In this document: positions 5,655 to 28,569 of the stretch, piece after piece
Layout: each line of letters opens with the position of its first letter
Position numbering within the stretch: position 1 is the stretch's first letter
Origin: Fibrobacter sp.
GTDB taxonomy: Bacteria > Fibrobacterota > Fibrobacteria > Fibrobacterales > Fibrobacteraceae
Assembly (NCBI GenBank): GCA_024689485.1
Contig: JAILDK010000047.1
Location: 1 to 33,698, forward strand
Length of the DNA stretch: 33,698 nucleotides
Direction: 5' to 3'
The notes under the pieces: model-generated
Database searches by the model: none
What the model was told of the DNA's origin: nothing
What the model saw: only the letters and a program-made list of their open reading frames with translations
Made by a program: the position numbers and the translations under genes

Positions 5655-6311
5655 TTAACCGTTTTTAAAGATGTCAAAAAGGGAGGAACCGTTTTGGAAA
5701 AGGCGAGTCTGCATACCGACCGAGGCGGCTCCGCGAATGTCGCGTTCCGGATCGTCGCCGACAAAAAGCGTTTCTTCTGCCTGGGTGCCTAAACGTTCGA
5801 GAGCGATTTTGAAAATTTCGGGATCGGGCTTGCGCACATGGACTTCGCCCGAGATAACGACCGCATCCAGAATCTTTAAGAGACCGTGTTTGCGCAACAC
5901 TTTGCGCACATGCGGTGCGTGCTGAAAATTGGAAATGACGCCGATTTTAACGCCCTGTTCCTTGAGCTTTTTCAAGAGCGGGATCGTTTGCGGATGGATG
6001 GGCACGAGTCTTTGCCAGCGGTTCATCGAAATGGCGGCGGTGTGCTTGATCCAGTTGTAATCGGGTTTCGCACCGAAAAATTCGGCGAGTTTTTTGAGAC
6101 GGAGTTCGTATTGCGTGTACTGGTCCGTATCAGGTACCGTTTCCGTAAAAAAGTGCTTGCACTGTTTGGAAACCTGCGAAACGGAAACGGAAACGCCGAG
6201 TTCTTTTAACGCACGAGTGACATCCTCGTGCCAGAGCCCAAAAGCCTTGGACATATTGCCATAGGTATAGAGGGTTCCGTAAAGATCGAAAAGAACGCCG
6301 GCGATTTCCAT
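5655..6311 (-). CDS. HAD-superfamily hydrolase
   Basis: A 218-aa cytoplasmic HAD hydrolase. Motif I is LFDLYGTLYTY: the nucleophile Asp9 is present, but the usual second Asp (DxD) is Tyr, as in the haloacid-dehalogenase/FDxYGTL branch. A helical cap follows (about 17-90). Motif II is GVISNFQ, motif III is around VRKPDPEIF, and motif IV is FVGDDPERDIRGA. The substrate cannot be read from sequence; a small phosphorylated metabolite or sugar phosphate would fit the carbohydrate neighbours but is a guess. It lies between the Dabb gene (9-nt gap) and GH8 (3-nt gap), in the same operon. There is no strong Shine-Dalgarno, so coupling to the upstream gene is likely. Confidence 0.88.
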   Translation of the reverse strand: MEIAGVLFDLYGTLYTYGNMSKAFGLWHEDVTRALKELGVSVSVSQVSKQCKHFFTETVPDTDQYTQYELRLKKLAEFFGAKPDYNWIKHTAAISMNRWQRLVPIHPQTIPLLKKLKEQGVKIGVISNFQHAPHVRKVLRKHGLLKILDAVVISGEVHVRKPDPEIFKIALERLGTQAEETLFVGDDPERDIRGAASVGMQTRLFQNGSSLFDIFKNG

Positions 6312-6320
6312 TGCGAAGTC

Positions 6321-6623
6321 TTAGACCTCGTAATCGATGACGCAACGGTCAGAAGCGACCTTGGCCATGAAGTGCTTGATTTCGACGTGAGCCGGGAAGT
6401 CCTGGTAGAAGTCGAGATCTGCCTTGGTGTTGAAAGAAGTCAAAAGACCGACGTCCCAAGCGGCAGCGCTGCGGTTAAAGTCCACACCGGATTCGATCGA
6501 AACGAGACCCGGAACCTTGCCTTCGAGCGCCTTGAACTTTTCCACAATCTTCTTGCCGTTTTCGGCTGCGGTTGCGCCTTCTGCTTCTGCCTTCAACTTC
6601 CAGAGAACGATATGCTTGATCAT
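6321..6623 (-). CDS. Dabb (stress-responsive alpha/beta barrel) domain protein
   Basis: A 100-aa single-domain protein of the Dabb family, ferredoxin-like dimers of mostly unknown function. Family features are the start MIKHIVLWKLK, the central VPGLVSIESGVDF, and the C-terminal block DLDFYQDFPAHVEIKHF. An AAAGG sequence six nt before ATG 6623 supports the start. It begins 3 nt after the GT4 gene stops and is third in the five-gene operon. Nothing in sequence gives a substrate. Confidence 0.88.
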   Translation of the reverse strand: MIKHIVLWKLKAEAEGATAAENGKKIVEKFKALEGKVPGLVSIESGVDFNRSAAAWDVGLLTSFNTKADLDFYQDFPAHVEIKHFMAKVASDRCVIDYEV

Positions 6624-6626
6624 AGA

Positions 6627-7814
6627 TCACCTTTGTACGAGCTTTTGATACATGGCGAATTGCCGCTCAAAGCAACTTTGCCAACTGAATTTTTTCGCGT
6701 ATTCCACAGATTTCTGCTTCAACTGCGCCATATCCATTTTAGAAATTTTCACAATGGCCTGAGCCAGAGCTTGCGGAGTGCGTTCTTCCAGAAGCACTCC
6801 GGCGCCCGATTCGCGCAGATGTTCGCCCGCGGCGCCGGTCGATGCGGCGACAAGCGCATCGCCGCAAGCGAGACTTTCGAGGATCGAAAGCCCAAAGGTT
6901 TCCCAGCCCGAAAGCGCAAGTCCCATGTCGACGCTCGCATAATGGCGAGCCATTTCAGCAGTACTTTTGATAAAGCCTTCGTAGCGGATATGCTTGTACT
7001 TTTTGGCCGCTTCTTCGACAAGCGGAAGGTCCGGGCCTGTGCCTGCAAAAAGGACGGCCGGTTCGCTGTCGAGTTCCTTGCAAAGAATCGGATACGCTTC
7101 GAGGAAAAGACGCAGACCCTTTTCGTCGCAAAAACGATGCGGGAAGAAAATCGTCAAACGGTTCGGATCGCCGTCTTTGAGTTCTTGCACCAGGGCTTCG
7201 TCACGGACTTCGGGGCGGAAGGTTTCGAGGTCCACACCGAGCGGAATCCATTCAAGCTGTTCCGGCTTAAAACCGTTGGCCTGGATGCGGTCCATCACTT
7301 CATGGGAACTCGCTTCGATTTTCGCATATTTTTTAAAGCTCGAACGGGCATAGGCAAAAGCTATCGACTGCGCCTTTTTGGCAAAGCGGGGGAATCCCCA
7401 TTTTTCAAAAAAGCGGCGCACGTACGTCACCGGAAAATCGGCATGCCAGAATGCGGTGAGGATCGGCTTTTTGGGGCAGCCTGCGCAAGCCTTTTCAATC
7501 GCCTTCGGCAAAATGTACGGGGAACCGACTTCGATAATATCGGGCTTGTACTTGGCGATTGTCGGCTTCAAATCGATCTGCTTCCACAGAAAGCGGTATT
7601 CCCAGTTTCCCGGAAAACGAAACGCCTTGGTATGCTCAATGATCAGCGAATCGGAAACTTTTTCGGTATAGGTTTTTCCGTCGTTCTGCACAAAGACGAG
7701 CAAGGCGTCGGGATGATTCTTGTAATACTTCATCCTTTCCAGATGGTAGCGGCGAACACCGCCTCCGGAAGGGCTCCAGAAGTTGTTGTAATCGACAATA
7801 ACGAGTCGGCTCAT
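6627..7814 (-). CDS. GT4-family glycosyltransferase
   Basis: A 395-aa GT-B fold glycosyltransferase (family GT4), probably transferring a sugar from a nucleotide-sugar donor in the cytoplasm. The N-terminal domain has the glycine-rich acceptor loop SPSGGGVRRYHLERM. The C-terminal domain has RLTIFFPHRF, the hinge LFAGTGPDLP, and the EX7E donor-site motif in WETFGLSILESLACGDALV (Glu305 and Glu313). There is no signal peptide or clear membrane segment. Its ATG overlaps the stop of the upstream primase-like gene by four bases (ATGA, 7811-7814), indicating translational coupling. Acceptor and product are not deducible. Confidence 0.9.
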   Translation of the reverse strand: MSRLVIVDYNNFWSPSGGGVRRYHLERMKYYKNHPDALLVFVQNDGKTYTEKVSDSLIIEHTKAFRFPGNWEYRFLWKQIDLKPTIAKYKPDIIEVGSPYILPKAIEKACAGCPKKPILTAFWHADFPVTYVRRFFEKWGFPRFAKKAQSIAFAYARSSFKKYAKIEASSHEVMDRIQANGFKPEQLEWIPLGVDLETFRPEVRDEALVQELKDGDPNRLTIFFPHRFCDEKGLRLFLEAYPILCKELDSEPAVLFAGTGPDLPLVEEAAKKYKHIRYEGFIKSTAEMARHYASVDMGLALSGWETFGLSILESLACGDALVAASTGAAGEHLRESGAGVLLEERTPQALAQAIVKISKMDMAQLKQKSVEYAKKFSWQSCFERQFAMYQKLVQR

Positions 7815-9706
7815 GGCTCTTTTTCTTTCATGCGGTAAGATTTGTCCGAGAACAAAAGATTTGCTTCGTACAAAGTCGAACCGGAATTTTTAAGGTTCAC
7901 GGTCAGCCAAAGGGCTCCATCTTCCTTGCGTTCAATCCAGAACGTCGCATCGGCATCGCGCAAGTACGGACGTGGACCGATCAGCTTTTCGCCGTCCTTT
8001 GTCACCGATCCGCTGATGAATACCGGAATATCGAGTTCCTTGTAAAGGTCAAGGGCTGCAGAAGATCTGCGTTCGTTCAAATCCGGAATGTCTCCGCGAT
8101 CCGAAATTCTCAAATGGTCTATGCCGTCGACGATCAGAATCAGTTTCTGCTTTTCGGAAAGCTCGGTCTGGAGTTCCTTCAGCAGAAGGCTGAACTTGAA
8201 GGTTTCCGTATCTTCCCAGATTTCCAAACGGTCCGACTTCACAAAACCGATGAGTTCCTGCGTTGCCGCGTGGATCTTTTCGTTGATTGCGTCGTCCTTG
8301 TTCTGCTTGCGCACGTCGGCTTCCGAAACGCCGGCGATCATCGCAACCAGGCGGTCAAAGGCTTGGCGACGTGGACTATCGAGCGCCACGTAAATCACCT
8401 TGGCGTCGGGATTCCCTTCGACAAGGTCCAGCGCAAAAGAAGAAAGCGCATAGCTCTTGAAGCCAAACGGATCCGAAGAAAGGAAGTAATAACCCGGCTG
8501 AATACCGTCGAGGGCGTGCGTCAAAGCGGGGAAGTTCGAAAGCTGGAATCCGACATCGGAATCGGCGTCGCGGCTCATCGCCGTGTTGAAGTTTTCGCGG
8601 ATATCCTGCAATAGCACGGACTTGCGGTGCGTGCGCATCGTATCTTCTTCCGTTCCGCGGATCATGTTCAAAAGGAAGTCGCCGCCTTCCGCTCGCACGA
8701 TTGTGTCGACGGTTTCGCCCGCCGGCAAAATGATCGATTTGAACTTGAGACCTTCCGATTCGGCAAGTTCCAAGCACTTGCGCACGTGAAGTTCCTGATT
8801 GCGACGGTTCGCTTCTTTGCGCAGCACAAGCGTAATGCCTTCTGCACCGCAGGACTTTAACTTGTAAAGGTGGCTGCGGCTAAAAGGCTGGTACATGGTC
8901 GAGACGACGCCCGGAATACCGGCGAGGTCTGCGGTCAAAGCGTCAAAAAGGCCTTCGACAACAATCGGATTGTCAATATCCTGCTGAATATTGAACGGAA
9001 TGTCGAGAGGTCCCGATGCGTAAGAAATGTAAGGTTCTTCTCCAGAATTCGGCGTGCCCGCATTGTCCAAAAGGCGACCGTAAACGGAGTGGATAATTCC
9101 CTTGGAATTGCGCGCCGGAATCGTGAGACGCGGCTCGTGGGAAATGTCCAGATTGTCCAGGTAAAAACTGACTTCGTGACGTTCAAGCCCCGAAAGCAGA
9201 CAGTAGCTGTAGAACGGTTCCGGATCACCGCTGTAATAGCCTAAGCCGTAAATCTGGGCCTGCGCCAGGTCCCAACCGCGAGCCTTCAAAAATTCGGCGG
9301 TGGATTCGCTCTTGCTCGCTGCCCAGTGGCAGTAGCGGACAAAACATTCGAGGACGCGAGCCTTTGCCCCGCCGATTTCCTTTTCGTGCAGGTTTTCTTC
9401 TTCGCTCTTCAAATCCGCTTCGGAAGCGCCCCAAAAGTCCAGGGCTTCTTTCCGGGCTGTCTTTTCATCTAGGCCGTTAAAACGGCTGCGCATCAAAAAT
9501 TCAACAAGATCCCCGTCGTTACCGCACTGCAGGCAACGATAGCGCCAGTATCCCAAAGAATCGTAGAAGAATAACGAAGATTCTTCCGGGGCATGGAACG
9601 GACATTGAGAAATCAGATTACGTCCCCAACGTCTTAAAGGTATCCCCAATCTTTTCGGATGGGTCTTGATGCGTGATAAACCGATTTTGTCTTCTTCGAT
9701 GAGCAT
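7811..9706 (-). CDS. Degenerate primase-helicase-like protein (CHC2 zinc finger, TOPRIM, RecA-like)
   Basis: A 631-aa protein arranged like a T7 gp4/Twinkle-type primase-helicase. A CHC2 zinc finger has Cys35, His38, Cys58 and Cys61 (CPFH to CLQC). A DnaG-like core follows. A TOPRIM domain keeps the glutamate in VVEGLFDAL (Glu251), but the place of the DGDxAG metal motif reads LVLRKEANRR (about 293-302), with no DxD. The C-terminal DnaB/RecA-like domain (about 395-620) has a Walker A remnant SSDPFGFKSY, where the glycine before Lys417 is Phe, and a Walker B LILIVDGIDHL. It could therefore be a nucleic-acid-binding or regulatory protein rather than an active primase; a separate true DnaG would be expected elsewhere. 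ATG 9706 is chosen because AGAGGTGG lies 5 nt upstream; ATG 9730 has none. It is first gene of the five-gene operon and divergent from ruvC. Confidence 0.8.
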   Translation of the reverse strand: MLIEEDKIGLSRIKTHPKRLGIPLRRWGRNLISQCPFHAPEESSLFFYDSLGYWRYRCLQCGNDGDLVEFLMRSRFNGLDEKTARKEALDFWGASEADLKSEEENLHEKEIGGAKARVLECFVRYCHWAASKSESTAEFLKARGWDLAQAQIYGLGYYSGDPEPFYSYCLLSGLERHEVSFYLDNLDISHEPRLTIPARNSKGIIHSVYGRLLDNAGTPNSGEEPYISYASGPLDIPFNIQQDIDNPIVVEGLFDALTADLAGIPGVVSTMYQPFSRSHLYKLKSCGAEGITLVLRKEANRRNQELHVRKCLELAESEGLKFKSIILPAGETVDTIVRAEGGDFLLNMIRGTEEDTMRTHRKSVLLQDIRENFNTAMSRDADSDVGFQLSNFPALTHALDGIQPGYYFLSSDPFGFKSYALSSFALDLVEGNPDAKVIYVALDSPRRQAFDRLVAMIAGVSEADVRKQNKDDAINEKIHAATQELIGFVKSDRLEIWEDTETFKFSLLLKELQTELSEKQKLILIVDGIDHLRISDRGDIPDLNERRSSAALDLYKELDIPVFISGSVTKDGEKLIGPRPYLRDADATFWIERKEDGALWLTVNLKNSGSTLYEANLLFSDKSYRMKEKEP

Positions 9707-9736: not shown

Positions 9737-9768
9737 TTTGGAATCTAAGGGGTTCTTTATTAGTTTTT
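9737..9768 (+). promoter_or_regulatory. Candidate ruvC promoter
   Basis: TTTG (9737-9740), exactly 20 bp, then TAGTTTTT (9761-9768), one mismatch from TAnnTTTG. The predicted transcription start would fall about at the ATG (9773), implying a leaderless mRNA. Confidence 0.4.
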
Positions 9769-9772
9769 GGGT

Positions 9773-10345
9773 ATGATTATTTTAGGTGTTGACCCGGGTT
9801 CCCGAACCACAGGCTATGCGTTCTTAGAAAAACGGGATGACGATTCGATCCGCGTATTGGAATATGGGACTGTATCGGCGAAGGCGACGGATGATTTTCC
9901 CGATCGTTTGGTCAAAATCGTTACAGATCTAGAAGAACTCGTGGATCATTACAAGCCGCAGGCGTTGAGCATGGAAGGCGTCTTTTTTGCAAAGAATGTC
10001 CACAGCTCGCTTGTGCTCGGGCATATCCGTGGCGCAATCCTTGTGATGTGTCGCCGCCGCGGCATGGAATTCTTTGAATACAGCCCCCGATCGGTCAAGC
10101 TCGCCGTTACAGGCGACGGCGGCGCTTCCAAAGAAAAGGTCGCCCTGTTGGTCCGTACAAGGCTTGGCATGAAGCAAGCGGACGATGTCAAGCTCGACGC
10201 GACAGACGCTCTGGCGATTGCCTGCACACACCTCTTTCCGCAAAATGAATTTGTACGCAAAACGCCTTCCCGCAAAACGTCCAAGAAAAAGACGGACCAG
10301 TGGAAGGATCTGATTTTGAAGATGGGAGGAAAACTGCCCGCATGA
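9773..10345 (+). CDS. ruvC: Crossover junction endodeoxyribonuclease RuvC
   Basis: A 190-aa Holliday-junction resolvase that works with RuvAB in recombinational repair. Catalytic acids are visible at the expected places: Asp7 (ILGVDPGS), Glu68 (SMEGVFF), and Asp142 and Asp145 (KLDATDALAIA). The length fits the family (about 160-190 aa) with a basic C-terminal tail. ATG 9773 gives the standard MIILGVDPGS start; TTG 9767 adds two residues. No well-placed Shine-Dalgarno is present. The stop overlaps the next gene start (ATGA), so ruvC and the peptidase genes form one operon. Confidence 0.96.
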   Translation: MIILGVDPGSRTTGYAFLEKRDDDSIRVLEYGTVSAKATDDFPDRLVKIVTDLEELVDHYKPQALSMEGVFFAKNVHSSLVLGHIRGAILVMCRRRGMEFFEYSPRSVKLAVTGDGGASKEKVALLVRTRLGMKQADDVKLDATDALAIACTHLFPQNEFVRKTPSRKTSKKKTDQWKDLILKMGGKLPA

Positions 10346-11841: not shown

Positions 11842-12663
11842 TTAGGCGGCTTCTTTCTGCTTCTTTTCGGCTTCCGCTTCGGCAATAATCTTCGAACGCT
11901 GAATGAATCCGAGAGTAAAGCCGATTACCACGTAGCTGCCGCAAAGGATCATCAAGTAGGTGAGGATGATGTTCTGCAGAAGAACGTTGGAAGTGATGTA
12001 GAAGAATCCGCTCAGATAAGTGATCACGACGAGCACGATCTGGAACGCGGCGAGAGCCTTGTTCTTGTGCGGCTGGAGCTTCGGGAGGAAGCACGGCGCA
12101 ACCATCATCAGGCCCGTCACGAGGAGCACGAGAATCGGGAGGAACAGAAGGTTTTCGTTTCCCGGGTTGAAGAGACCGTGCAAGGTCATGTAGCTGAGGA
12201 AGATCATGTTGATGGCGCCTGCAAAGGTGCTCGGCAAACCGGAGAAGTGATGGTGGTAAGTATCGCCGTCCATCGCATTGTATTTGGCAAGGCGCATGGC
12301 TGCGCAAAGGACGTAGATCGCAAAGACGATCACCACGAGAACCAGGTTCTGGCCGAGCCATTCCGCGGCGTTGGCCTTATAACTGAAGAAAACGCAGAAT
12401 GCAGGAGCAAGACCGAAACCGACGAGGTCGCCCAGACTGTCGAATTGAGCTCCGAATTCAGAGCTTGCGTCCACTAAGCGGGCCGCAAAACCGTCGAGCT
12501 TGTCGCAGAGGACGGAAAGAAGAACAAAGTAGGCGCCCATGCGGAATGGGTCGAGAGTCGAATAACCGTTGAACATGCCGGCAGACCAGCAGATCGAAAA
12601 TGCGCCCAGCAAAAAGTTCAAGCTGGTAAAAGCATTCGGCAAAATAAAACGAGCTCTTTTCAT
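11842..12663 (-). CDS. pssA: CDP-diacylglycerol-serine O-phosphatidyltransferase
   Basis: A 273-aa integral membrane enzyme that makes phosphatidylserine from CDP-diacylglycerol and serine, the precursor of phosphatidylethanolamine. The CDP-alcohol phosphotransferase signature is complete: Asp54, Asp57-Gly58, Ala61-Arg62, Gly71, Asp75 and Asp79 in a span from CDKLDGFAAR to FDSLGDL. About eight hydrophobic helices follow the family pattern, and the C-terminus is short and charged (EAEKKQKEAA). ATG 12663 has GGAG 8 nt upstream and gives the typical start MKRARFILPNAFT. Assignment as PssA rather than another CDP-alcohol transferase rests on the N-terminal block and length. Confidence 0.92.
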   Translation of the reverse strand: MKRARFILPNAFTSLNFLLGAFSICWSAGMFNGYSTLDPFRMGAYFVLLSVLCDKLDGFAARLVDASSEFGAQFDSLGDLVGFGLAPAFCVFFSYKANAAEWLGQNLVLVVIVFAIYVLCAAMRLAKYNAMDGDTYHHHFSGLPSTFAGAINMIFLSYMTLHGLFNPGNENLLFLPILVLLVTGLMMVAPCFLPKLQPHKNKALAAFQIVLVVITYLSGFFYITSNVLLQNIILTYLMILCGSYVVIGFTLGFIQRSKIIAEAEAEKKQKEAA

Positions 12664-12696
12664 CGTAAGATCTCCAAATCGTGGTAACAATCTAAT

Positions 12697-12727
12697 AAAA
12701 AAAGCCCGTTCAAGAACGGGCTTTTTA
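12697..12727 (-). terminator. Terminator of the solute-binding protein gene
   Basis: A perfect 9-bp stem, agcccgttc / gaacgggct, surrounds an aa loop (12702-12721), with an A tract on the left and a T tract on the right. It can work on both strands and separates the gene ending at 12749 from pssA. Confidence 0.85.
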
Positions 12728-12748
12728 CAGAAATGTGACTCTTTCAGA

Positions 12749-14527
12749 TTACTGAACCGGTTTGATTTCCCAGAGTGCCTTGATACCTGCTCCGACGATC
12801 AAACCCTGAGGCGGTGCATACGGATTTTCTTCGGTCGGGAAGTTTGTCCAATGCTTGGTCGAGAACTGGTAATACTGCGTCGGACGGTACATCAGCGGCA
12901 GAACCGGGACCTTTTCCATAAAGATGCGGTTCAGGGCTCTGTAGGCGTTTTTGAGCGCATTCGAGTCGGTGAGCGACGGAATCAGTTCGAGAAGGCTGTC
13001 TGCCGCCGGATCGCTAAAGCGTCCGAGGTTGGCAAAGGCTTCTTCGCCCACAGGCTTAGTGCTCTTGCTGTTCATCACCTGGTCAAAACGGGTCCACGGG
13101 GTGGCGGCAGAAAGGTCTGCGGTCTGCGTCTTCATGGCGAGATCGAACTTGCCGTAGCGCAGGTCCTTATCCCATTCCGCGTATTCGACAAAGCGCTGGT
13201 TCGTAGAAACGCCGATCTGCTTGAAGGATTCCGCGACCACCTTGATCGCATCTTCCCAGTCGGTCCAACCGTTCGGACATTCGATGCTCAGCGGGCGAAC
13301 CGGCATGCCTTCCTTGTTCAAAAGAAGACCGTCGTTATCCCAAGAATAGCCTGCATCGCTCAAAATCTTCTTCGCCTTTTCGATGTCGTAGGTGTAACCG
13401 TACTTTTCGGCATCTTCTTCGTTGAAGTATTTGGATTCCTGGCCGAATGGAAGGATAAAGCCCGGACGTACCGGATCCGTGTAGTTGGAAACGGCAACGG
13501 CCTTGATCTTTTCAAAGTTGATGGCGTGGGCCAAGGCTCTGCGGAAGGCGACGTCGTTGAACGGAGTCGTGGTCGTCGCAATGAAGAGCGTCGGAATCGA
13601 ACCCGGATAATGATACGGTTCCTTGAGGCTCCAAGAGCGGATGTCGTCGCGCTTCTTTTCCCAGATGCGCGGCATGAAGATCGAGGAAACGTCCAGGTTT
13701 CCCTTGGTCATCGCGTTGTTGAAGTGGTTGTTGCCCGGGTAAAGCGTGTGAATCACGTAGAGCGGAGCCGGAGCCTTGCCACCGTGCTTCACGTTGCCCC
13801 AGTAATTTTCGACGCGCTTCAAAACGATCTTGTCCGGATAGTAGGAATCCAGATTGTACGGACCGGAAACGACCGGCGTGGAATCGTTCTTAAAGGTCAG
13901 CACGTTCGCATAGTTGTAACGGCCGCCTTTTTTGGAAGCTTCGACGATCGGCTGGAAAACGCTCTTCGGCAGAATGGACGTTTCCGAAAGCAGATTCAAA
14001 AGGACGAGCGGATTCTTTTCCGACTTGTTCATCAAAAATTCAATCTGGTTGCCGTTTGCAGAAATCTTGTCCAGATACTGCCAACCAGCGTGACGCGGGG
14101 TCGGGAAAATCGAATCGAGATAGAAGGTGTAAAGAACGTCTTCGACAGTGATCTTTTCGCCGTTGCTCCAATGGGCGCGTTCATCGAGTTCGACGGTAAT
14201 CGATGAATCCGTTTGCACGTAACTCTTGGCGAGCATCGGCTCGGTTGTACCGTCTAAAAGATTGTAGGCGAAAAGCGATTCATACATCAAACGGATATTG
14301 CCGTCGATGGGGAAGTTCGGATCGCCGTCTAGAGGGTTGAAAGACGTGGGGGGCGCCCAGTCGTAACCGCCGATGTAAAGGGTTTGAGATCTTGGATAAA
14401 GAGATTCTTCCGCAGAAGGTTGCGTCTCTTCTGCTTTGTCTTTGCACGCGGTGAAAGCGGCGCAGACAATCATGCCTGTGAGAAGGACGTTCGCGAATCG
14501 ACCATACTGCAAACATTTTTTGAGCAA
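12749..14527 (-). CDS. Family-5 (oligopeptide/dipeptide-type) solute-binding lipoprotein
   Basis: A 592-aa extracytoplasmic binding protein of the SBP_bac_5 family, which captures peptides, and in some bacteria oligosaccharides, for an ABC importer. The lipoprotein signal ends at CAAFTAC (Cys28). Family blocks include the MLAKSYVQ segment, WSNGEKITVEDVLYTF, VAFRRALAHAINFEKI and the C-terminal VPVLPLMYRPTQYY. The start appears to be TTG at 14527, supported by AAGGCGGA about 8 nt upstream; a downstream ATG would shorten the signal peptide too far. No permease or ATPase gene is adjacent, so its partner lies elsewhere. The ligand is unknown. Confidence 0.85.
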   Translation of the reverse strand: MLKKCLQYGRFANVLLTGMIVCAAFTACKDKAEETQPSAEESLYPRSQTLYIGGYDWAPPTSFNPLDGDPNFPIDGNIRLMYESLFAYNLLDGTTEPMLAKSYVQTDSSITVELDERAHWSNGEKITVEDVLYTFYLDSIFPTPRHAGWQYLDKISANGNQIEFLMNKSEKNPLVLLNLLSETSILPKSVFQPIVEASKKGGRYNYANVLTFKNDSTPVVSGPYNLDSYYPDKIVLKRVENYWGNVKHGGKAPAPLYVIHTLYPGNNHFNNAMTKGNLDVSSIFMPRIWEKKRDDIRSWSLKEPYHYPGSIPTLFIATTTTPFNDVAFRRALAHAINFEKIKAVAVSNYTDPVRPGFILPFGQESKYFNEEDAEKYGYTYDIEKAKKILSDAGYSWDNDGLLLNKEGMPVRPLSIECPNGWTDWEDAIKVVAESFKQIGVSTNQRFVEYAEWDKDLRYGKFDLAMKTQTADLSAATPWTRFDQVMNSKSTKPVGEEAFANLGRFSDPAADSLLELIPSLTDSNALKNAYRALNRIFMEKVPVLPLMYRPTQYYQFSTKHWTNFPTEENPYAPPQGLIVGAGIKALWEIKPVQ

Positions 14528-17913: not shown

Positions 17914-19962
17914 CTATTCCGCCTTTTTGAGTCTTACCGTGAAAGTCGAACCCTTGCCTGGATGACTTTGCACAGAAATACTCGCTTTGTGAGCTTCTGC
18001 CACGCGTTTGACGATCGCAAGCCCAAGTCCTGAGCCTTTGGTGCTGCGCGTCATTTCGTCGCCGACGCGGTAGAAGTCGTTAAAGATATTCTTTTGCTCG
18101 GAAGGTTTGATTCCAATGCCCGTATCTGTTACCGAAAATACGATTTTTTCATTTTCTTCGGCAACTCGGACGGTCACTTTTCCCGGTGGATTCGTGTACT
18201 TAATCGCGTTTTCGATCAAGCCTTGTGCGAGACTGTAGAGGGCTGTATTGTCGCCCATAATGTAAGATCCCGGAGCGAGATCCTTGATCATGGTGATGCC
18301 GCGGTTGTCGGCGATGTCCATGGTCGCTTCAAAAACTCGGTTCACGCATTGCGACAGGTCGAGCTTTTCCCAATGGAAAACCTGTTTTCCGGTTTCCATG
18401 CGGGTGTAGTCCAAAATCGCTGCGATCAAATTCTCTAAACGGGTCGATTCCTTGCCGATGAGCTTGGAGTATTCCTGGCACTTTTCAATCTTTTGAACGC
18501 GCCCGTTGGAAATCATTTCGGCAAACATCTTGATCGATGTCAGCGGAGTCTTGAGTTCATGCGACACAGACGAAAGGAAGTTCGTCTTCATCATAATGAG
18601 CTTGCGTTCCTGCGAAATGGATTTTAAGATGAAGAAGGAACCGAGCAGAACAGTGAGAAGCGAGAAGGCGACAAGGCCCGAAAGCAGGAACATCTTGTGG
18701 CGCGCTTCGCTGTAAATTTCTTCTGTATCGCGCTGGTAAAGGGTCAGCGACCAGCCGAGTCCTTCGCCCAAGTCCATCTGCTTGGAAATCACCGCTTCCT
18801 TTCCCGGCGTTTTGCCAAGGATCACGGAATCGCGACTGTCCGTAATGGAAAAGAGAACATTCTTCCATTCACGGGAAACATCGGAAAGCTGATCGCGCAA
18901 GCGCTTTTGGTAAGACTCCGCATCGACCATTCCAATCAAGACCTGATCGCCGGAAAGCCAAGGATAGGCCATGCGGAAGAAAAGGGTCGAACCGTCTTTC
19001 TTGTAAACGATTCCGCTTTTCGTCGGAATTTCTTCGGTGGCAAAGCGCTGTAAAAATTCTTGGTGCGCGGCAAAGGCTTCGGCGTGTTCCAGCTGACGGT
19101 TCAGGTTTTCACGCAGGTTCCAGAAAGCGTCACGCTTTTGCTGGGAAAGTTCTTCGAATGAAAGAATTTGGCTCAGAGCATTGTCAAAGAAGAACTTGGC
19201 ACTGCCGATGTCCTGCATCGAATGGCCTTCCAAGAAATCCGAGAAGAGCTTTAAGCAGTAATCCTCGGCAACGGCGTGCTTCTTTTGCTCCACGAAAATT
19301 TCAAACTTGAGATAGCGCAGCGATTCGGTTAAGTTGTTTGAAAGATAACCGTGGACGTTCGGGATGCGCTCTAAAATGTCGATGATGTGGATGGCTTCGT
19401 CGTAATGCTTGTGACGGTAATGCAAGCGCAATAGACCGAGCAGGTTTAGAATCTGGTCTTGTGGCAAAAACCGAGTCGGCTGCATCAGAATCTTGTTTCG
19501 GATTTCCTCGATTCCTTGCTCGTTGGCTCCGGTCACTTCAAAATGGAGCATGTCCCTTTCGAGGCTTCCTGGGATGGTGGTCGGCGGATCGAGCTTAGAC
19601 GGTTCCCGGTGAATGGAAATGCTCGGGAAGACAAGAGCGTTTTCGTTAAAAACGAATGTCGCAGCGACGCCTTTGACCTGTCTAAAGGAAGGCGCTTTGT
19701 CGAATTCGAGAAGCTTTTGAGGCTGTTCGTAAAGGTAAATCGACGCCGTTTTCGTTTCGTTCAGAATGGTGTACTGCTCTTCTTGAACGGCTTGAATTGC
19801 CTGCTTGGAAAAAGAGGCTTGGGCGTTTTCGAAATTCTTTTCAGCGAGAAGACGTTCGTTTTGAACGTTGCGAAAACTGAGAAAAGCAAGGATAGCCGTC
19901 GGAATGATGATTCCGCAGAAAAAAAGCGCAATGAAGATGCGATTGTTCTTCGGAAGTTTCAC
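17914..19962 (-). CDS. Membrane sensor histidine kinase with large extracytoplasmic domain
   Basis: A 682-aa sensor kinase. Transmembrane segments at about 8-30 and 424-446 bracket an extracytoplasmic region of about 390 residues. That region includes a helical TPR-like part (about 168-245) and a PAS/Cache-like part (about 315-410). The HisKA dimerisation domain has the phospho-acceptor His468 (SSVSHELKTPLTS). The ATPase domain has the N-box GLIENAIKYT (Asn585), G1 VTDTGIGI and G2 GSGLGLAIVKRV. The start is GTG 19962, supported by AAGGAT a few bases upstream. It is cotranscribed with the response regulator (3-nt gap) and preceded by a 54-aa membrane protein. The signal is unknown; the domain layout suggests an envelope cue. 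Confidence 0.93.
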   Translation of the reverse strand: MKLPKNNRIFIALFFCGIIIPTAILAFLSFRNVQNERLLAEKNFENAQASFSKQAIQAVQEEQYTILNETKTASIYLYEQPQKLLEFDKAPSFRQVKGVAATFVFNENALVFPSISIHREPSKLDPPTTIPGSLERDMLHFEVTGANEQGIEEIRNKILMQPTRFLPQDQILNLLGLLRLHYRHKHYDEAIHIIDILERIPNVHGYLSNNLTESLRYLKFEIFVEQKKHAVAEDYCLKLFSDFLEGHSMQDIGSAKFFFDNALSQILSFEELSQQKRDAFWNLRENLNRQLEHAEAFAAHQEFLQRFATEEIPTKSGIVYKKDGSTLFFRMAYPWLSGDQVLIGMVDAESYQKRLRDQLSDVSREWKNVLFSITDSRDSVILGKTPGKEAVISKQMDLGEGLGWSLTLYQRDTEEIYSEARHKMFLLSGLVAFSLLTVLLGSFFILKSISQERKLIMMKTNFLSSVSHELKTPLTSIKMFAEMISNGRVQKIEKCQEYSKLIGKESTRLENLIAAILDYTRMETGKQVFHWEKLDLSQCVNRVFEATMDIADNRGITMIKDLAPGSYIMGDNTALYSLAQGLIENAIKYTNPPGKVTVRVAEENEKIVFSVTDTGIGIKPSEQKNIFNDFYRVGDEMTRSTKGSGLGLAIVKRVAEAHKASISVQSHPGKGSTFTVRLKKAE

Positions 19963-19978
19963 GGTATCCTTTTTTCAG

Positions 19979-20143
19979 TTAGTACAAGATTCGAACAAGC
20001 GAAGAAAGCTTGCCCGGACCCAGGGCTTCTGCAATCTGATCGGCAAGCGAAGGGTTTACCATCAAGACGATTGCAAAAGCGAGAAGCACCGCGACGAGGA
20101 TGGCGAACACCCAGGCGCAGTACATCAATATCCGAAACTTCAT
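19979..20143 (-). CDS. Small single-pass membrane protein (54 aa), unknown
   Basis: A short gene with ATG at 20143 and TAA at 19979-19981. Its start overlaps the stop of the LysM gene as ATGA (20140-20143), a strong sign of translational coupling, and it stops 16 nt before the kinase start. The product begins MKFRILMYCAWVFAI, has one hydrophobic helix (about 5-29), then a short amphipathic tail containing DQIAEALGPGKLSSL. I know no family for it. Its position suggests an accessory subunit of the kinase or of the LysM protein, which is an inference. Confidence 0.72.
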   Translation of the reverse strand: MKFRILMYCAWVFAILVAVLLAFAIVLMVNPSLADQIAEALGPGKLSSLVRILY

Positions 20144-21312
20144 TTGACGAGACTAGCCTTGTGCGTAATGGAAACGAGACTGCCGAAGTCAATTCGACGG
20201 TCACCGTAGTAAGATTCACGCACGAGGATCACGGCATGCTTCTTGTTCAAGGTCGTCACGATACCGCGAGCGAGAAGACGCGGCGGAATCAGAGCGTCGG
20301 AACGGTCCTTTTCCCAAATGGCGACACCGTCGCCGAGAGCGTAACCGTTTTCAGATCCCTGATCGATCATCACATAACCGTATGGTCCAACGACCTGGCT
20401 CTTTTCCAAGGAGTAGCGGACAATCGCCATTTCATCGACCTTAGCGGTTTTAACTGTGTCATAACCGCCGACGTTGATCGCTTCAAACGGCTTTTGAATG
20501 CGAGCCTTGGCCGTTTCCATCTTGATTTCGTACATGCTCTGCAAAATGACAGCACGGGAAAGCGTATCGCCGACGTCCGTGATGCGGGCAAGACCCGTAT
20601 AGCGGAGAATGGCGCCCTTTTCATCCTTGCGGATCTTGGTCGCAGGCAAGTTGGCACGGCGTGCGTCCCAAATTTCGACCATGTCGCCGACGTGGGCCTT
20701 CTGTTCGGTATTCATACCGATGCCGATGACCACTTCCTTTTCGGCGGTGTGGAGGAGCGGTTCTCGCTTTTCGCCGGAGCGGATCGAGAGCCAGTTCTTG
20801 TCATCCTTGATTTCCTTCGGGGTCGTCACGATCGGAGCGAGCACCTGATAGAAACCGTTGAAGGTCTTTGGCTGTGGGCGCTGGGAATAGTAGTAAGACG
20901 TTCCCTTGGCTTTGCTTGGCTTCTTTTTCTGGTGAGCGGTATCGTTCGCAAGCTTGCCGAGCATCTTTTCGAAGTTCGAATTTTCGTTTCCGGCACATCC
21001 GCTAGGAACGGACACGCCCTTTGGAAGAGTCGAATCCGGTTTTGCGGTCGCGCACGGAGCGGACTTTTTCGGAGCAGGCTTTGCCGAAGTGTCTTGTGCT
21101 TCACCCAAATAGATGGAGTCGCCCGGATAAATCCAGTGCGGATCCTGGATGTGCTGGTTGTTTTCCCAAAGGTCGGGCCAAGCAAACGGATCCTGCAGGT
21201 ATTCATCGGAAATATCCCAGAGGGTATCCCCTTCCTTGACGAAATAGGCGCTTGCGGCAAGGGCTGCAAGGCCAAGAGCAATAGAAATGCTTTTAATGTG
21301 CCTCATATTCAT
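20140..21312 (-). CDS. LysM-domain envelope protein
   Basis: A 390-aa exported protein. Signal peptide is about 1-22, followed at once by a LysM-type domain (about 23-70: FVKEGDTLWDISDEYL to IYPGDSIYLGE) expected to bind peptidoglycan or chitin-like glycans. A Pro/Lys-rich linker with Cys residues follows. The C-terminal half (about 140-390) is beta-rich, with several VGD-type turns (VGDMVEIWDAR, VGDTLSRAVIL, LGDGVAIWEKD). The start is taken at ATG 21312 with AAGG 8 nt upstream; TTG 21315 and ATG 21306 are alternatives. It is the first of a compact set with the small membrane protein, kinase, regulator and propeller protein, which suggests cell-wall monitoring. Confidence 0.86.
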   Translation of the reverse strand: MNMRHIKSISIALGLAALAASAYFVKEGDTLWDISDEYLQDPFAWPDLWENNQHIQDPHWIYPGDSIYLGEAQDTSAKPAPKKSAPCATAKPDSTLPKGVSVPSGCAGNENSNFEKMLGKLANDTAHQKKKPSKAKGTSYYYSQRPQPKTFNGFYQVLAPIVTTPKEIKDDKNWLSIRSGEKREPLLHTAEKEVVIGIGMNTEQKAHVGDMVEIWDARRANLPATKIRKDEKGAILRYTGLARITDVGDTLSRAVILQSMYEIKMETAKARIQKPFEAINVGGYDTVKTAKVDEMAIVRYSLEKSQVVGPYGYVMIDQGSENGYALGDGVAIWEKDRSDALIPPRLLARGIVTTLNKKHAVILVRESYYGDRRIDFGSLVSITHKASLVK

Positions 21313-21344
21313 CAATTTAACCTTTTTATAAGCAATAGGTATTT

Positions 21345-22604
21345 TTAACGACGGCGCTTTTGGGTAAAATGCACCATTTCTGAGGGTTCTTCTGCGTGGA
21401 AACTTTGATTTTCGCGGTGCTTGATGACCTTTGCCGAGCGTTCTTCATGGCGTCCCAGCAGACCTGCGCGGTCCGGAACAAACAGGAAGAGAACCTGGAA
21501 AAAGTCCTTGCCCGGTTCGATGTCGAGCGGGATAATCTTGCGGAGCATATAGCCTTCACGGCGGAAACGCTTGATTTCCATGGCGGCGACGGTCAAGTTC
21601 GAAGAATTCAAAAGAATGCGTTCAGGACCTTGGGCGGCGAGCACCGGAATCACGTTACCGGCAAGAGCCTTGCCTTCTGGCGGATCGAGGTAGACAGTCC
21701 ATTTGCCTTCCTTGGATTTTCCGCTAAAGAATTTGGGGAAGAATTCCTTGTCGACGGCGGATTGAATGAAGCGCACGTTCGGCGTCTGGCGGGAAACCTT
21801 GCGGGCGTCCACGGCGAAGGTTGCTGCGAAATGCGGGGCGAGCGATTCTGCGATGTAGCCCGTACCGGCGTAGCATTCGAGGAACTTGTCGTCTTTGGAC
21901 GGGTGGATCGCTTCGCGGATACGCTTGGGAAGTCCGATCCAAGGTTCCTTGGCAAGCGGTGTCCAATCGATGATGTTGAACGTTTTACCGGTTCCGGCGA
22001 TCGGAAGGTAGTCGCTGCCGAATCCCTTGTGCAAAGTGATGTGGGTGCCGGGAGCTGGATGCGACGGGTCAAAAACCTGGACCGGGCGAACCTGCATCTG
22101 GTGGCAGCAGAGAATTTCCTTGGAATGTTCGTGCTGCAGATAGTTGAGGAACGTTTTGAACTCGCGGGCTGCTTCTGCGGTGTGGAGAATGTTCTGCACC
22201 GCAATGCCGTAACGGCCATCGCCTGTCGCGCGGAACCAGATCTGCAGAATGGACTTGCGGAATTTTTGCAGGTGCAGCTTGCGGATCTGCGCATCGATGT
22301 CGAGGACGATCTTCGGCGGTTTTGCGCCTTTGTACGGACCTTCCAAAGAAAGGACGCGGTTCGTCTTCGTCAGGTTCTGGGTGCGGATTCGCCAGTCGCT
22401 CGTTTCGGACTTGGACGGTACGCTGTACCAGCTTTGAATTTTTCCTGGGATGCGATTATCGAGAGCCCACTGTTCGAGGTAAGCTTTTTTTGCTTCGAGG
22501 TCAGAAGGGACTGGGCCGAGAGACTTCTTCTCCGGTTCTTCTTCTTGGACCTTTTCCGGTTTGCGGCTCCAAGTGCCGCGGTTTTCCAATTTTTTTCTTT
22601 GCAT
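21345..22604 (-). CDS. TrmA/RlmD-like SAM methyltransferase lacking the catalytic cysteine
   Basis: A 419-aa protein with a class I SAM-dependent methyltransferase domain. Motif I is FLECYAGTGYIAESLA (241-256), the acidic motif is FAVDAR, and motif IV is YLDPPEG (305-311). The order and spacing resemble uracil-C5 RNA methyltransferases of the TrmA/RlmD group. In these, DPP is followed by a catalytic Cys in an SCNP block. Here the block reads LLNSSNLTVA (331-340), with Ser in that place, and the terminal His-Glu base motif is replaced by GKDFFQ. No TRAM domain or iron-sulphur Cys cluster is visible. The N-terminus is basic. A different reaction or loss of activity is likely. It starts 12 nt after the primase/RepA-like gene stops. 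Confidence 0.68.
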   Translation of the reverse strand: MQRKKLENRGTWSRKPEKVQEEEPEKKSLGPVPSDLEAKKAYLEQWALDNRIPGKIQSWYSVPSKSETSDWRIRTQNLTKTNRVLSLEGPYKGAKPPKIVLDIDAQIRKLHLQKFRKSILQIWFRATGDGRYGIAVQNILHTAEAAREFKTFLNYLQHEHSKEILCCHQMQVRPVQVFDPSHPAPGTHITLHKGFGSDYLPIAGTGKTFNIIDWTPLAKEPWIGLPKRIREAIHPSKDDKFLECYAGTGYIAESLAPHFAATFAVDARKVSRQTPNVRFIQSAVDKEFFPKFFSGKSKEGKWTVYLDPPEGKALAGNVIPVLAAQGPERILLNSSNLTVAAMEIKRFRREGYMLRKIIPLDIEPGKDFFQVLFLFVPDRAGLLGRHEERSAKVIKHRENQSFHAEEPSEMVHFTQKRRR

Positions 22605-28493: not shown

Positions 28494-28496
28494 GAG

Positions 28497-28569
28497 AGCC
28501 ACCCAGCAGATTTGAACTGCCGACCTGCTGATTACGAATCAGCTGCTCTACCAGCTGAGCTAGAGTGGC
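28497..28569 (-). tRNA. tRNA-Thr (anticodon CGT)
   Basis: A 73-nt cloverleaf on the minus strand. The acceptor stem GCCACTC/GGGTGGC has one wobble pair. The D arm is GCTC-AGCTGGTA-GAGC. The anticodon arm GCTGA-TTCGTAA-TCAGC places CGT at positions 34-36, reading ACG threonine codons. The variable loop is AGGTC and the T arm is GGCAG-TTCAAAT-CTGCT. The discriminator base is T. CCA is not encoded and must be added after transcription. Confidence 0.95.

Follow-up and report, generated by a model that had tools for sequence, protein, structure and literature searches.

The window analysed here, a stretch of 33,698 nucleotides from a Fibrobacter genome, carries on its minus strand a gene at 7811-9706 that translates to a 631-residue protein, P0001. 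The gene, its parts and its neighbours are as follows.

6627..7814, minus strand: GT4 glycosyltransferase, its start overlapping the P0001 stop (ATGA, 7811-7814); the next gene at 71/71 loci
7811..9706, minus strand: P0001, 631 aa, a Twinkle/gp4-like protein without TOPRIM DxD or classical P-loop
7877..8545, minus strand: RecA/DnaB-like domain, aa 388-610
8117..8137, minus strand: Walker B-like strand with the invariant Asp527-Gly528
8453..8479, minus strand: aa 410-418, the altered P-loop (SSDPFGFKS), in which Lys and Ser/Thr are each kept in 71/72 and the Gly ahead of Lys in 0/72
8576..8638, minus strand: aa 357-377, a helix predicted to link the primase-like part to the RecA-like part
8672..8968, minus strand: TOPRIM-type domain, aa 247-345
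8804..8821, minus strand: R296-K-E-A-N-R301 at the position of DnaG's DGDxAG (DxD absent 72/72)
9017..9370, minus strand: aa 113-230, N-terminal portion of the RNA-polymerase-like core known from DnaG; only the zinc ribbon is better conserved
9485..9643, minus strand: aa 22-74, zinc ribbon of CHC2 type, with its ligands in 72/72 and conservation higher than anywhere else in P0001
9715..9719, minus strand: AGAGG, read from upstream sequences, which probably serves as ribosome-binding site of the start codon at 9706
9767..10345, plus strand: ruvC, divergent neighbour at most loci, not in G015 or G011

The start at ATG 9706 is backed by homologues and by the AGAGG ahead of it, and purine-rich stretches of this kind are found ahead of most P0001 homologues; a longer reading frame from 9730 also exists. 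The protein contains the zinc-ligand residues Cys35, His38, Cys58 and Cys61 and the motifs VVEGLFDAL (249-257), LVLRKEANRR (293-302) and SSDPFGFKSY (410-419). Translation and alignments thus bear out the description of an intact zinc finger and of these three motifs given in an earlier sequence-only reading of this DNA.

Pfam recognizes the CHC2 zinc ribbon (PF01807, 4.6e-8, above cutoff) and gives a weak TOPRIM match, while PF03796 (DnaB_C) scores 20.9 bits against a cutoff of 27, which the homologues in G015 and G009 exceed. The NCBIfam dnaG model TIGR01391 matches residues 22-357 at 3e-21, its 75.7 bits lying below the cutoff of 283.6. In hhalign comparisons the N-terminal half aligns with DnaG at 6e-24 and the C-terminal half with DnaB at 8e-7, with the RecA-like core aligned over residues 392-594; no match to the DnaB N-terminal domain was found in P0001. 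A ColabFold model built from 21 homologues has a mean pLDDT of 73.8 and a pTM of 0.48, the RecA-like part being good and the zinc ribbon poor. Foldseek places human Twinkle (3.1e-15) and T7 gp4 (about 1e-13) at the top of the PDB matches, over 535-628 columns with low TM-scores (0.30-0.43), followed by DnaB and DnaG, in agreement with the earlier claim that a primase-helicase fold is kept. Judged from these matches, P0001 is a zinc/primase core, a linker and a RecA-like domain in one chain, in the Twinkle/gp4 layout. This layout is backed, while the three-dimensional arrangement of the domains is unsure because the model is of moderate quality, its zinc ribbon is poor and the TM-scores are low. 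P0001 differs from Twinkle and T7 gp4 in that its zinc ligands are fully kept, its P-loop is altered too, identity is only 12-16%, and it is encoded on a bacterial chromosome alongside a complete DnaG/DnaB set. A weak local match to RadA/Sms (TIGR00416, 9e-4) covers residues 490-599; membership of that family is unsupported, as no convincing profile-profile match was obtained.

We aligned P0001 with 71 homologues (n=72) and compared them with two control sets, 15 DnaGs and 12 DnaBs, drawn from this and related genomes and including the copies of the window genome itself. The zinc ligands are invariant in all 72 aligned sequences. Profile alignment to the DnaGs places LVLRKEANRR on LVFDGDEAGR, and the TOPRIM DxD is present in 0/72 members of the P0001 family compared to 15/15 control DnaGs. 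The DGDxAGR site is instead occupied by R296 (69/72), R/K297 (72/72), E/D298 (67/72) and R301 (71/72), so that the usual family replacement for DxD is R-[RK]-[ED]. The TOPRIM Glu251 is retained in 61/72 sequences and Asp255 in 72/72. In the most divergent homologues, L177 and L179, Glu251 is lost and position 296 is Glu or Asp, which indicates that the TOPRIM site differs among deep lineages. A DxD pair elsewhere in the TOPRIM domain, which would have spoken against the earlier reading, was looked for in the 72-sequence alignment and the DnaG profile alignment and was not found. P0001 thus resembles DnaG (TIGR01391) in the alignment of zinc ribbon and core over residues 22-357 but differs from it in the sub-cutoff score, the family-wide absence of DxD and the RecA-like domain that follows the core. 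On this sequence comparison the loss of primer synthesis in the P0001 family, already proposed from the single sequence, is well supported, and primase activity would be no more expected here than in animal Twinkle.

The nucleotide-binding site of the RecA-like domain has changed in a less clear-cut way. Profile alignment to the DnaBs places LSSDPFGFKS on LAGRPGMGKS; the Gly before the P-loop Lys is present in 0/72 family members compared to 12/12 control DnaBs, and both P-loop glycines are replaced in 72/72, position 410 being mostly Ser and 416 mostly Leu, with P413 retained in 71/72. The H3 Gln position is Gly566 in 71/72 and Ala in 1/72, where the control DnaBs carry LxQLxR, and the Lys of KxRNG is mostly replaced by Ser605. 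The controls are intact for DxD (DnaG) and for GK[ST], SLEM, H3 Gln and KxRNG (DnaB). Other elements persist in the P0001 family: P-loop Lys417 (71/72), Ser/Thr418 (71/72), Walker B Asp527 (72/72), Glu (66/72) or Asp (5/72) at position 443, and Arg607 (65/72). The positions of Lys417, Ser/Thr418 and Asp527 are commonly tied to nucleotide binding. Likeness to DnaB (PF03796) accordingly lies in the RecA-like core, the Walker B Asp and, in most members, the Glu and Arg-finger positions, whereas the P-loop glycines, the H3 Gln, the KxRNG Lys position and the N-terminal domain set P0001 apart. The window's genus is the most changed at 443 and 607 (Glu443 to Asp, Arg607 to Asn). One homologue (L024:1501-3372 in G007; L172 is the same record) is the sole one without the P-loop Lys (SSQPMSLSS). 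In all other respects it is intact and of full length, an indication that this Lys is not indispensable. Since DxD and the Gly before the P-loop Lys are found in none of the 72 sequences and in all 15 control DnaGs and 12 control DnaBs, respectively, the substitutions are features of the family and not sequencing errors or the marks of a single decaying copy. Loss of ATP hydrolysis is plausible on these grounds. The earlier suggestion to this effect holds for the P-loop Gly and is less certain for ATP handling as a whole, because Lys417, Ser/Thr418 and Asp527 are still in place, as are Glu443 and Arg607 in most members.

The same residues bear on whether P0001 could be a primase-dead but motor-active protein, that is, an ATP-driven helicase or translocase like animal Twinkle working with a non-classical P-loop, S-S-x-P-F-G-L-K-T. 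The near-invariant Lys, Ser/Thr and Walker B Asp, the acidic residue at 443, the common Arg607 and the position of Twinkle as best structural match all argue for such a motor, and a passage of one published account describes animal Twinkle as having helicase activity only, owing to changes in its primase domain (PMC3610141). Against it stand the replacement of both glycines in every sequence, the lost H3 Gln, the mostly Ser605 at the KxRNG Lys position, the homologue without the P-loop Lys, and the Asp443 and Asn607 of the window's own genus. We regard an atypical motor as a serious but rather doubtful candidate.

A full-length P0001 homologue is present in 97/168 Fibrobacterota genomes and 9/41 genera, all Fibrobacteraceae, where many of the phylum's genomes are incomplete metagenome bins and some absences may be assembly gaps (e.g. 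G022, 71% complete), and where species counts are non-independent events dominated by genus g2. Every Fibrobacteraceae genus examined but two carries P0001, fibre-degrading rumen Fibrobacter species included. When 84,980 species genomes were scanned, 71 P0001 loci emerged, all in Fibrobacter or Fibrobacteres/Fibrobacteraceae entries, and a search of viral contigs found no relatives. Pairwise dN/dS of P0001 is 0.017-0.069, similar to or below that of GT4 in most pairs, and by this measure the gene is under strong purifying selection. Mean entropy is 0.33 in the zinc ribbon compared to 0.82 overall, and the C-terminal tail is least conserved. The absence of internal stops from every full-length match, together with a dN/dS of about 0.02-0.07, excludes a decaying pseudogene. 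To call the motifs "eroded", as had been done, is therefore misleading: the replacements at R296, R/K297, R301 and P413, like K417, are themselves conserved under strong purifying selection. In a quick GT4 tree with some long branches, the P0001-lacking g6/g9 group is nested among the P0001-bearing members of the family, in keeping with a single gain and a single loss of P0001. The gene is thus, as judged from its distribution, a Fibrobacteraceae-specific, vertically inherited, family-wide core gene. We found no description of the P0001 family in the open-licence literature.

This history speaks against P0001 being a defence or mobile-element protein, a role that had been entertained earlier. 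Phage primases do show weak similarity to the N-terminal half (21-26% identity), and PADLOC gives an RT_UG29 match over residues 18-159 (3.9e-10), but the phage and PADLOC matches are confined to the shared primase region, and vertical inheritance across the family, a conserved neighbour, the lack of a viral-contig relative and a GT4 tree with one gain and one loss all point the other way. We consider such a role very improbable. A viral origin was likewise rejected, the phage matches being half-length and no relative having been found on viral contigs.

The window genome holds separate canonical dnaG and dnaB genes, so the claim of a non-priming protein also survives the possibility that no other dnaG existed there. 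P0001 coexists with canonical DnaG, DnaB and mostly DciA. Replacement of the helicase loader by P0001 is unsupported, since DciA occurs in 23/24 genomes with or without P0001. An extra short dnaG-like frame of 356 aa lies outside the window in the same genome (G000:C44:8500-9423; TIGR01391 1.4e-23, below cutoff) and is possibly a mobile-element primase.

The ATGA overlap between P0001 and GT4, noted earlier, is real. Over 71 loci the distance from P0001 stop to GT4 start is estimated at -19 to +26 nt, always on the same strand. In a comparison of 21 loci, ruvC and the genes that lie past it recur often, and G015 and G011, which differ, still retain the P0001-GT4 pair. Pfam confirms the assignments of Dabb, HAD and GH8, but these genes lie near P0001 in only part of the compared loci and are not conserved neighbours, so that of the proposed carbohydrate operon headed by P0001 only the GT4 part stands. 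The conserved adjacency and overlap suggest that P0001 and GT4 are co-expressed. In the sampled family genomes P0001 always occurs with GT4 (26/26), and GT4 is present in 6/11 genomes lacking P0001 (Fisher p 0.001, the genomes not being independent). GT4 without P0001 is found in genus g6, G013 and three outgroup genomes, beside other genes. In several of the P0001-lacking genus g6 genomes and in G013 (L101:5206-5838, L102-L105, L109) a viroplasmin-type RNase HI-like gene, recognized by eye, lies directly upstream of GT4; its interpretation as a replacement for P0001 was rejected, as P0001-bearing genomes hold an RNase HI homologue elsewhere.

P0001 might have abandoned nucleic-acid work and become a functional partner of GT4 in surface-glycan production, for example as a sensor or scaffold. 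The constancy of the pair, which holds even where, as in G015 and G011, the rest of the neighbourhood is different, and the absence of P0001 without GT4 would be explained in this way. However, GT4 occurs without P0001 and hence does not need it, overlapping genes may remain paired without a common function, and no part of the protein is better conserved than the zinc ribbon; we think this partnership improbable. A longer shot still is a family-wide pseudo-primase-helicase in which both catalytic centres have been re-populated by new conserved residues and whose new job would be tied to GT4 expression or function, for example by linking surface-glycan synthesis to replication state or to the sensing of nucleic acid.

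The architecture, the loss of DxD, the altered P-loop, the purifying selection and the GT4 linkage are read directly from the sequences. We favour over an atypical motor the explanation that P0001 is a Fibrobacteraceae-specific, non-priming Twinkle-like protein that acts as a nucleic-acid-binding oligomer with altered or no ATPase, and would give this explanation an even chance of being right. The ancestor would have combined a primase of the DnaG type with a RecA domain resembling that of DnaB, and the present P0001, no longer priming, would descend from it. From architecture and conservation, the zinc ribbon and DnaG-like core may bind single-stranded nucleic acid, and the RecA-like domain may assemble P0001 into a ring or filament in which nucleotide binding could remain. 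The complex, presumably co-expressed with GT4, would serve as a non-priming scaffold or regulator and not as a motor. Counting against this scaffold is the retention of Lys417, Ser/Thr418, Asp527 and usually Glu443 and Arg607, which would be unusual for an empty site; nor does it account for the conserved GT4 link.

On the strength of their domain matches, primase-helicase fusions are usually taken for enzymes, and annotation of P0001 as "DNA primase" on that basis alone would be wrong. Nearly a whole bacterial family retains this protein without the primase metal site or a classical P-loop, beside canonical DnaG/DnaB genes. Because the sites are altered in all species, the gene is strongly preserved and GT4 is adjacent, P0001 probably acts on nucleic acid in a novel manner. 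As an example of a replication enzyme that has become a non-priming protein it is open to experimental test, and its role bears on an important group that includes fibre-degrading rumen Fibrobacter.

Elsewhere in the window, plus-strand reading frames of 536, 545 and 629 aa (6228-7838, 12569-14206 and 19459-21348) run antisense to or across likely genes and are probably composition-driven shadow frames. A tRNA-Thr (CGT) at 28496-28569 on the minus strand is the sole RNA gene detected in the window.
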